A DNA stretch of 64,000 bases from positions 60,173 through 124,172 of the forward strand of contig JAHDVH010000006.1 in the NCBI GenBank assembly GCA_023382385.1, read 5' to 3'. A model generated the notes under the pieces. The model did no database searches, was not told the origin of the DNA, and worked only from the letters and a program-made list of their open reading frames with translations. Positions within the stretch are counted from its first letter, which is position 1, and the number at the start of each line of letters is the position of its first letter. The DNA comes from a bacterium. Lineage in GTDB: Bacteria > Electryoneota > RPQS01. The translations under genes were made by a program, and so were the position numbers. Positions 61,223-64,000 of this stretch are shown one piece after another.

Positions 61223-61294
61223 GCGGATGTAACTCAACGGTAGAGTGTCAGCTTCCCAAGCTGGAGGTTGCGGGTTCGAGTCCCGTCATCCGCT
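61223..61294 (+). tRNA. tRNA-Gly (anticodon CCC)
   Basis: 72 bases. Acceptor stem GCGGATG pairs with CATCCGC, D-arm ACTC...GAGT, anticodon stem TCAGC/GCTGG with loop TTCCCAA giving CCC, and T-arm GCGGG-TTCGAGT-CCCGT. Discriminator T, as expected for Gly. The 3' CCA is not encoded. It stands immediately next to a recombinase-bearing region, and tRNA genes are common integration targets. Confidence 0.93.
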
Positions 61295-61299
61295 CAAAT

Positions 61300-61327
61300 A
61301 AAAACAAGCTATTAGATGCTTGTTTTT
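61300..61327 (+). terminator. Terminator after tRNA-Gly
   Basis: Stem AAAAACAAGC, loop TATTAGAT, GCTTGTTTTT followed by GTTTTT. It begins six bases after the tRNA. Confidence 0.9.
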
Positions 61328-61452: not shown

Positions 61453-61484
61453 TGGGTTGAAAAATCTGGGTCAGATGTAATACT
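61453..61484. repeat. Degenerate copy of the array boundary sequence
   Basis: GGGTTGAAAAATCTGGGTCAG and the following TGTAATACT resemble GGGTTGGAAAAATTGGGTTG at 63591-63610 and the sequence after it. It suggests an older, decayed copy of the array boundary. Confidence 0.45.
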
Positions 61485-61515
61485 TCCGTCTGTGGGCTGG
61501 ATGTTTGGAAAATTC

Positions 61516-61626
61516 GGGTTGATTGCAATACTGACCATGTGCTGATGCTGCACCGCGTCTGGACCGTCACTGTCCACGGGCGCTACACCGCGGCGCCATC
61601 TGACCGCGTCTGGACCGTCACTGTCC
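61516..61626. repeat. Flanking direct repeat, left copy
   Basis: 111 bases that align without gaps to 63601-63711, with three mismatches (61565, 61576, 61577). The two copies are in the same orientation 2085 bases apart and bracket the recombinase and LPD29-like genes. The conserved block starts GGGTTGATTGCAATACTGAC and runs into the GC-rich array. Confidence 0.9.
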
Positions 61627-61943
61627 CCGGGCTGCACCGCGGCGCCGGCTGACCGGCTGGACTGTCACTGTCCACGGCGCCGGATGACCGGCTGACCGTC
61701 ACTGTCCACGGGGCCGGTTGCACGGGCTGACCGTCACTGTCCACGGCACCGGCTGACCGGCTGGACCGTCACTGTCCACGGGCGCTACACCGCGGCGCCG
61801 GCTGACCGCGGCTGGAGCGTCACTGTCCCGGGGCTGCACCGCGGCGCCGGCTGACCGCGGCTGGAGCGTCACTGTCCCGGGGCTGCACCGCGGCGCCGGC
61901 TGACCGGCTGACCGTCACTGTCCACGGCTGCACCACGGCGCAG
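61549..61943. repeat. GC-rich dyad repeat array, left
   Basis: Nine copies of a 15-base core close to GGACCGTCACTGTCC begin at 61561, 61612, 61659, 61693, 61728, 61763, 61814, 61863 and 61909, spaced 34-51 bases. The core is itself an imperfect palindrome. Between copies are CCGCGG- and GGCGCC-rich linkers. A 49-base unit (61801-61849) is repeated exactly at 61850-61898. The array is far more GC-rich than its surroundings. Confidence 0.9.
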
Positions 61944-61948
61944 GGTGT

Positions 61949-61977
61949 AAAAAAACAGACTCTCTCGAGTCTGTTTT
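61949..61977 (-). terminator. Terminator of the recombinase operon
   Basis: Minus strand: AAAACAGACTC, loop GAGA, GAGTCTGTTTT followed by a run of T. It lies 28 bases after the recombinase stop and separates it from the left array. Confidence 0.9.
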
Positions 61978-62004
61978 CTTGTTTCGTGGTGGTGTGCTGT
62001 AATG

Positions 62005-62994
62005 TTATGGTTCTGAATATCCGGCGATCTGGCGGGCCAGTTTACGGCGGGCGGCGGACAAGCGTTCGGTGTTGTGGTTGTTTGTATATATCTCGGTTGT
62101 CTTTGCGGAGGAGTGCCCGAATAGCTGCTGCATGGTCGGGCTGTCTCCGTGAAAAATGTTTCCTCCCTCCTCGCCGGCGGTGTTGCGGAGCCGGTGCGTG
62201 GTAGCCCACTTGGGCAAGTTGGCTCGCCCTGCAAAATACTTGAACTGCCGGCGGGCCGTTGTCTCTGCGAGGCGGCCGGATCCCTCTCCGCGGAGTCGCA
62301 CAAAATAGAGGTCTGTTTCGGTGGACCCTTGCGCAATCCGCCATGTATGATAACGGAGTAAGTGTTCATAAATGGAAACGGACCCGATCCGGCTCTCGTC
62401 GCGAAAAATTTCGACGGTTTGAGGTTGTCCTGTTTTGGTAATTTCCCCGGGGAGATAAAGGGAAAACTGAAACAGTTCAGGATTGTGCAAAACCGAGTTA
62501 GTCGGCAGTTTAAGCAACTCGCCGAGGCGACAGAATCCAAACAATACGGATCCCCACAGTGCAACGTTGCGGGCGGCGCGGATGTCGGATCCGTGGCCGG
62601 CAATTGTCTCGAAGAGTTGGGAGCGTTCCTCTGGCAGAAAAAATCTGCGGGTTGTAAATGGTTTGGGGGTTACAACCAGATCGCGAAGTTGTTCCTTAAG
62701 GAGGTCGCGGTCAGCCGGTGTAAACTGGATACTGGATTCTCCGGCAAGGAACGCCGAGAACTTTGAGACAAATGCTACAGCTTGATTGATTGTGCGCGGT
62801 GCGGCGCCCGCGGCACGCATAGAGAGGAGTCTGTCGATGATCAGATTGACTGAGAGTTGATCTGTGGTTGTGTTTTGGAAAAGCGCGCGCAAGCGCTCCT
62901 CTGTTTTGCGGAGTGTTTCCGCGGCCGGCGGACGTCCCTTGCGGGTCGGCATCAGGCGCCGGCGGTCCATGTAGCGAGTTATGAGAGTTTGCAT
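62005..62994 (-). CDS. Tyrosine recombinase (phage integrase family)
   Basis: 329 residues from the ATG at 62994; the frame is open to 63093 but that part overlaps the next gene. The N-terminal ~110 residues form a SAM-like core-binding domain (LRKTEERLRALFQN, RTINQAVAFVSKFSAFLAG). The catalytic domain has Arg156 (GFCRLGELLKL), Lys187 (EITKTGQP), His267 and Arg270 (THRLRNTAGEEG), His294 (LFGHSSAKTTEIY) and Tyr303, the complete R-K-H-R-H-Y set. It should cleave and rejoin DNA through a 3'-phosphotyrosine. The start overlaps the upstream gene by 16 bases. The flanking direct-repeat arrays are candidate substrates (inference). Confidence 0.9.
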   Translation of the reverse strand: MQTLITRYMDRRRLMPTRKGRPPAAETLRKTEERLRALFQNTTTDQLSVNLIIDRLLSMRAAGAAPRTINQAVAFVSKFSAFLAGESSIQFTPADRDLLKEQLRDLVVTPKPFTTRRFFLPEERSQLFETIAGHGSDIRAARNVALWGSVLFGFCRLGELLKLPTNSVLHNPELFQFSLYLPGEITKTGQPQTVEIFRDESRIGSVSIYEHLLRYHTWRIAQGSTETDLYFVRLRGEGSGRLAETTARRQFKYFAGRANLPKWATTHRLRNTAGEEGGNIFHGDSPTMQQLFGHSSAKTTEIYTNNHNTERLSAARRKLARQIAGYSEP

Positions 62995-63572
62995 GGTTCT
63001 GTCATGAGGTTTAGATTTGAGAGGATGCGGTGCAAAATTTCGTTGCCGCGGGGTGCTCCTTCTATCCACCAATTGGCATAAGCCTCCCGGCAAACTGTGT
63101 ATTTCAGTACGGCCGTTGCGAGATCATTGTACGTAGTTCGCGCATCGTCGAAAATGCGCTGTATCGCGGCGGGAGAAAAATGCCGCGACGTCAGGACATA
63201 ATTGGTGAGCAGGTAACAGGCTTCGCAGTCGGGCGGAATAGTCTGGCGATCGGGGGGGACAACTCCTAAAGAGCCGACTGTTCCGCAGGTTCCGCAGATC
63301 CTGACCTCGCGTGACGGGGTGAGATAGTGGTAGATCGGATAGCTTATATCGATCATCCCGTCGAAGCCCTCGCCAGCGTAATGCTGCGTAATTTCCTCGA
63401 CCTGTTTGATTGTCGGACCGTCGATCCAATCGACGGAGAGTGATAGTGATCGCGTGGACCGAACTCGAAATTTTTGACCGGGGAATTCGCGCGCAAGTTC
63501 CTTGCGTAGGAGTTTCGCTGCGTCCACGGCGAGGATTGTTTCCTCTCTGGCTGTTTTGTGTGTGTACAACAT
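62979..63572 (-). CDS. LPD29-like zinc-ribbon protein
   Basis: 197 residues from the ATG at 63572, with AGAGG six bases upstream; the frame continues into the repeat array to 63713, which I do not count as coding. Residues ~15-80 (AKLLRKELAREFPGQKFRV, then SLSLSVDWIDGPTIKQVEEI and GFDGMIDIS) match LPD29, a domain found in large polyvalent proteins of phages and conjugative elements. Cys93/Cys96 (CGTC) and Cys116/Cys119 (CEAC) form a probable zinc ribbon. It is encoded directly ahead of the recombinase, whose start overlaps its stop. A directionality or DNA-binding accessory role is inference. Confidence 0.75.
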   Translation of the reverse strand: MLYTHKTAREETILAVDAAKLLRKELAREFPGQKFRVRSTRSLSLSVDWIDGPTIKQVEEITQHYAGEGFDGMIDISYPIYHYLTPSREVRICGTCGTVGSLGVVPPDRQTIPPDCEACYLLTNYVLTSRHFSPAAIQRIFDDARTTYNDLATAVLKYTVCREAYANWWIEGAPRGNEILHRILSNLNLMTEPCKLS

Positions 63573-63600
63573 GGCTGCCTCTTTTGGGGTTGGAAAAATT

Positions 63601-63711
63601 GGGTTGATTGCAATACTGACCATGTGCTGATGCTGCACCGCGTCTGGACTGTCACTGTCCCGGGGCGCTACACCGCGGCGCCATCTGACCGCGTCTGGAC
63701 CGTCACTGTCC
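63601..63711. repeat. Flanking direct repeat, right copy
   Basis: Right partner of 61516-61626, 108 of 111 positions identical. It lies 29 bases upstream (minus strand sense) of the LPD29-like start codon, so the conserved boundary also forms the leader of that gene. Confidence 0.9.
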
Positions 63712-64000
63712 ACGGCACCGGCTGACCGGCTGGACCGTCACTGTCCACGGGCGCTACACCGCGGCGCCGGCTGGACCGTCACCGTCACCGGGCTGGACCG
63801 CGGCGCCGGCTGACCGGATCACTGTCCCCGGCAGACCACGGCTGACCACGGCGCCGGCTGGACCGTCACCGTCACCGGGCTGGACCGCGGCGCCGGCTGA
63901 CCGGATCACTGTCCCCGGCAGACCACGGCTGACCACGGCGCCGGCTGGACGGGATCTACCTGCAGCCGGCTGACCGGCGCCGCGGTGGACGGGATCTACC
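63634..64000. repeat. GC-rich dyad repeat array, right (continues beyond window)
   Basis: Core copies at 63646, 63697, 63732, then diverged forms (GGACCGTCACCGTCACC at 63773 and 63860; GGATCACTGTCC at 63815 and 63902). An 87-base unit (63771-63857) is duplicated exactly at 63858-63944. GGACGGGATCTACC occurs at 63947 and 63987. No gene is supported; the 60-codon open frame on the minus strand is a by-product of the 87-base period. Confidence 0.85.

Follow-up and report, generated by a model that had tools for sequence, protein, structure and literature searches.

A recombinase module between GC-rich repeat arrays is probably the left end of a divergent tRNA-integrated prophage

The right-hand end of the window, a 64,000-nucleotide stretch of DNA (positions 60173-124172 of contig C6), is probably the left end of a tailed temperate prophage integrated in tRNA-Gly(CCC), as judged from its sequence. 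Such a prophage is a known kind of mobile element, here with two unexplained ornaments, namely repeat arrays and a second tyrosine recombinase. A first-pass annotation had taken the region for a mobile or cassette-exchange system in which two repeat arrays enclose genes for an LPD29-like protein and a recombinase beside a tRNA gene. The mobile part of that reading survives, in the form of a prophage end with 62-bp attL and attR repeats and an empty site in a relative, but cassette exchange is not supported. The two enclosed genes and the tRNA gene were correctly recognized (Table 1), although the tRNA gene is the phage attachment site and not part of an array system.

The window stops where contig C6 (124,172 bases) stops, inside the second array. 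Two arrays do flank the two-gene unit, as had been described, but C6 breaks off partway through the second, which continues on another contig, C1 (988 kb). The first 35 bases of C1 are an exact match to the last 35 of C6, within the same 40-bp unit, and C1 opens with five further 40-bp units of Array 2. Beyond these places, array sequence occurs in the genome only as a third array on C1, in the opposite orientation. Because only these contig ends and Array 3 carry array sequence, the simplest view is that C6 and C1 adjoin here. The two 62-bp att repeats are exact copies in the same orientation, and take in the 3' portion of the tRNA-Gly gene with the beginning of its terminator. An unoccupied site is found in a congeneric genome (G001), which has one tRNA-Gly(CCC) with both flanks collinear and no insert. 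The prophage is at least about 45.1 kb long, the missing part being the length of Array 2 across the C6/C1 junction. In that gap Array 2 could hold further genes, which counts against the explanation of a prophage with minisatellites that we favour below.

Table 1 Features of the left prophage region. Positions refer to the window unless preceded by C1.
Feature	Position	Strand	Remarks
tRNA-Gly, anticodon CCC	61223..61295	+	Phage integration site, intact at left junction
attL	61246..61307	+	62-bp direct repeat, identical to attR (C1:42348-42409)
Decayed leader copy	61457..61484	+	20/28 identical to leader at 61505; p about 0.0005-0.002 against dinucleotide shuffles
Leader and first array units	61505..61630	+	Repeated at 63590-63715, 6 mismatches in 126
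Array 1	61530..61945	+	Non-coding tandem repeat, 73% GC, 9 near-palindromic cores
Terminator hairpin, rho-independent type	61949..61980	-	3' end of LPD29-INT-A operon; minus-strand T-run seen in sequence
INT-A, Xer-like tyrosine recombinase	62005..62997	-	PF00589, E 4e-7; about 330 aa
LPD29-domain phage protein	62979..63569	-	PF18847, E 2e-16; gene end overlaps INT-A gene start
Leader and left half of Array 2	63590..64000	+	C6 end cuts 40-bp unit; resumes at C1:1-218
Type II hammerhead ribozyme	C1:321-255	-	Rfam RF02276, 42 bits against gathering threshold 37
Beta-clamp (DNA polymerase III)	C1:320-1547	-	Split by a frameshift near an A6 run
Promoter-like TTGACA-17-TATATT	C1:1628-1600		
Array 3	C1:1772-1922		39-bp unit at 98%

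Between the att repeats lie genes for a terminase (phrog_2, 7e-15), a tape measure protein (6e-45), a tail-fibre-like protein, a DNA primase/helicase, a DNA methyltransferase and a beta-clamp, together with two lysogeny genes, a Cro/CI-type HTH repressor and an ImmA-like peptidase. With att repeats in a tRNA gene, an empty site in G001, and terminase, tail and lysogeny genes between the repeats, the element is, as known here from sequence, a tailed prophage integrated in a tRNA gene. Temperate tailed phages with P22/HP1-type integrases share with it an att repeat at the 3' end of a tRNA gene, an integrase adjoining attR, and genes for a repressor, an ImmA-type peptidase, a terminase, a tape measure and a primase, but the proteins of the present prophage are very distant, and at its other end it has a second, Xer-like recombinase and GC-rich arrays. 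Neither the terminase nor the window recombinase (INT-A) has close relatives among 39 genomes of the phylum, and none were found in viral contigs for these two or for the attR-side recombinase (INT-B). Genome contigs and plasmids likewise yielded no close relative of INT-A, and hence no conserved context to compare. Two further observations concern the phage genes on C1: a zinc carboxypeptidase (M14) with a LamG-type lectin domain is encoded at C1:7660-10110, among the late genes after the terminase, and a ribosome-binding site and a start codon fall within a perfect 120-bp tandem duplication at C1:11354-11596, immediately ahead of a 419-aa phage gene.

Read across the junction, the left end of the prophage would form a leftward operon that starts at the promoter, continues with the beta-clamp gene, the type II hammerhead ribozyme, Array 2, LPD29 and INT-A, and ends at the terminator; the gene order itself is read from the sequence, and the run is presumably co-transcribed. 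The frameshift in the beta-clamp gene is possibly a sequencing error, or real. The terminator hairpin is symmetrical and could serve both strands. The hammerhead lies directly downstream of the beta-clamp gene and adjoins Array 2, and its core is intact, with CUGACGA, GAAA and the UC cleavage site all present. Prophage hammerhead ribozymes near integrases are already known (PMC3088659). The present one resembles them in being of type II, with a consensus core, in a prophage cluster with an integrase-family gene, but its neighbours differ, being a beta-clamp gene on one side and a GC-rich array on the other. Genome G022 of the phylum has another hammerhead, on a 4.9-kb contig that carries no arrays; the neighbouring gene there is AAA-type ATPase-like. 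The LPD29 domain is known from proteins of phages and conjugative elements (PMC5512222), and relatives of the present protein occur in two viral contigs, neither of which has arrays. As separate observations, an inverted repeat GTGTTGGTAAT-TATAT-ATTACCGACAC at C1:1997-2023 is dif- or operator-like and could be an operator; terminator hairpins aside, it is the best recombinase-core-like palindrome of the left region. Repeated operator-like half-sites, GTTGGTGTTCC and GGAACGCCAAC, both direct and inverted, lie at C1:2187-2221 and 2526-2617 in intergenic DNA before the late genes.

The arrays are mosaics of a few words, with a GC content of 72-75% compared with 34-55% in the adjoining phage DNA. 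The 111-base block reported for the two window arrays is indeed present in the same orientation at 61516-61626 and 63601-63711, with 3 mismatches. The units of Array 1 measure 34-35 or 46-51 bp, the difference being the presence of a 14-16 bp module. In its left half Array 2 has a unit of 87 bp, duplicated at 99%; its 40-bp unit is repeated at 97%, and its right half has a different unit. A core described as palindromic, GGACNGTNACNGTCC, does recur at spacings of 34-51 bases, near-palindromic rather than perfect; counted on both strands, GACNGTNACNGTCC with at most one mismatch occurs 28 times in the window, never outside the two arrays, where dinucleotide shuffles would lead one to expect 0.9 occurrences in the window. 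The term dyad-rich is apt for the core but not for whole arrays, which fold no better than dinucleotide shuffles (z -0.95, -0.93, -1.05 and +1.04). The usual core site of a tyrosine recombinase has arms of 9 or more bases around a spacer of 5-9 bases. No inverted repeat with arms of at least 9 bases and a 5-9 base spacer was found in any array (at most one mismatch; arms of 9-13 tested), and the arrays have no GTTRRRY or RYYYAAC cores, in agreement with the earlier remark that the repeats are not attC-like. Protein-coding function was rejected given stops in nearly all frames and unit lengths that are mostly not multiples of three, and no Rfam family matches inside the arrays.

Searching the genome and its relatives for the core and the block, as had been proposed for a cassette system, went against one: three arrays were found, all in this one prophage, while 38 other genomes of the phylum lacked the core and viral contigs lacked the motif. 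Array 1 had no blastn match in phages. Pairs of cores were searched in 84,980 genomes, which gave 14 stretches: high-GC repeat DNA of Streptomyces and others, dispersed palindromes in Magnetococcales, and single chance matches. Alignment over the unit was seen only for low-complexity Streptomyces DNA, and the stretches are repeats unrelated to the arrays or chance matches. In the 8-kb Magnetococcales palindrome loci that were fetched, tblastn found no INT-A-like gene. As an observation in its own right, intergenic palindromes of one family, GGGGACCGTGACGGTCCCC, are dispersed over at least nine scaffolds of Magnetococcales bacterium HCHbin5, often in tandem.

The best-supported reading of the arrays, we infer, is that they are intergenic minisatellites punctuating the leftward phage operon, possibly bound by protein. 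On this reading the GC-rich arrays would change size by slippage or unequal recombination and would not be substrates of INT-A. Recent tandem duplication in Arrays 2 and 3 is indicated by the 97-99% identity of their unit copies. The 126-base direct repeat around LPD29 and INT-A would be a segmental duplication of array plus leader; together with the leader copy, it suggests a past event of that kind. The decayed boundary copy noted earlier is plausible but weak (Table 1). Homologous recombination across the 126-base repeat could delete the LPD29/INT-A module, which is the sole sense in which the module could be called a cassette. Pure slippage does not require the near-palindromic core, and its retention in arrays of both orientations counts against slippage as the whole explanation.

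The main rival to minisatellites, somewhat unlikely in our judgement, is that a phage protein binds the arrays as clusters of sites, for example a repressor, a replication-origin or partition protein, or possibly INT-A. Copies of the 15-base core number 12-14 in the window, with more in Array 3, and the arrays always lie in intergenic gaps of one gene cluster. A precedent exists in Bacillus phage SPbeta, in which MrpR, a repressor with a tyrosine-recombinase fold, binds SPBRE, a 15-bp repeat dispersed in the phage (PMC10516654); the likeness is that a prophage combines a recombinase-fold protein with a 15-bp element repeated in intergenic DNA. However, MrpR has lost its catalytic residues and its sites are dispersed (PMC10516654), whereas here all catalytic residues are kept and the sites stand in tandem arrays; INT-A is therefore not classed as MrpR-type. 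Binding sites are also opposed by the lack of isolated copies scattered over other promoters of the phage (its other 40 kb gave one match, with 2 mismatches), by a spacing that is irregular and without helical phasing, by the different unit in the right half of Array 2 and by the Cro/CI-type repressor that the phage already has. By analogy, the prophage may work partly like SPbeta. A more elaborate version, in which INT-A would bind expandable palindromic arrays placed between the modules of one early operon, and the arrays would both regulate that operon and act as hot spots of module gain and loss, with the hammerhead separating module transcripts, is very improbable.

The prophage encodes two tyrosine recombinases, and integration is likely the work of INT-B (phrog_1, 1e-31), because it has an N-terminal extension and P22/HP1-like similarity and its gene adjoins attR, ending 18 bp away, and the lysogeny genes. 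INT-A is shorter, without an N-terminal extension of this kind, and its residues 32-310 show a likeness to XerC (TIGR02224, 41 bits, below cut-off). Its active site is complete (R160, K191, H271/R274 in HxxR, H298 and Y307 in the 333-aa translation), and it is predicted to be catalytically competent. We infer that INT-A is accessory to INT-B and may, for example, resolve phage multimers. This role is drawn from family resemblance only, which counts against the overall explanation, and an AlphaFold model of INT-A made without an alignment was unusable (pLDDT 35). That INT-A is instead the main integrase, with its arm-type sites in Array 1 as part of attP, is improbable: integrase genes usually adjoin attP and Array 1 does lie between attL and INT-A, but INT-A is Xer-like and lacks an N-terminal extension for binding arm sites, INT-B has the expected features beside attR and the repressor, and the similar Array 3 lies far from attP.

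An integron-like exchange, in which INT-A would recombine the arrays and move genes between them, is extremely improbable. In its favour are the direct 126-base repeats around a two-gene unit whose recombinase has an intact active site, and the decayed leader outside them. An integron with attC cassettes shares with the module a recombinase gene beside direct repeats, but here the recombinase is of the wrong family (26.3 bits against a cut-off of 265 for the integron integrase model TIGR02249), the arrays have neither recombinase-core-like inverted repeats nor attC features nor excess folding, there is no cassette array, nothing searched held further array copies, and a conventional prophage encloses the whole module.

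An assembly break within a repeat marks the end of the window, and the neighbouring contig shows an ordinary integration layout, which corrects the tempting reading of a new cassette system. Three intergenic gaps of a single gene cluster hold GC-rich arrays, one of which broke the assembly, and these pose a small question about phage non-coding DNA. The analysis has further brought to light a very divergent prophage in which two tyrosine recombinases occur together with a hammerhead ribozyme.
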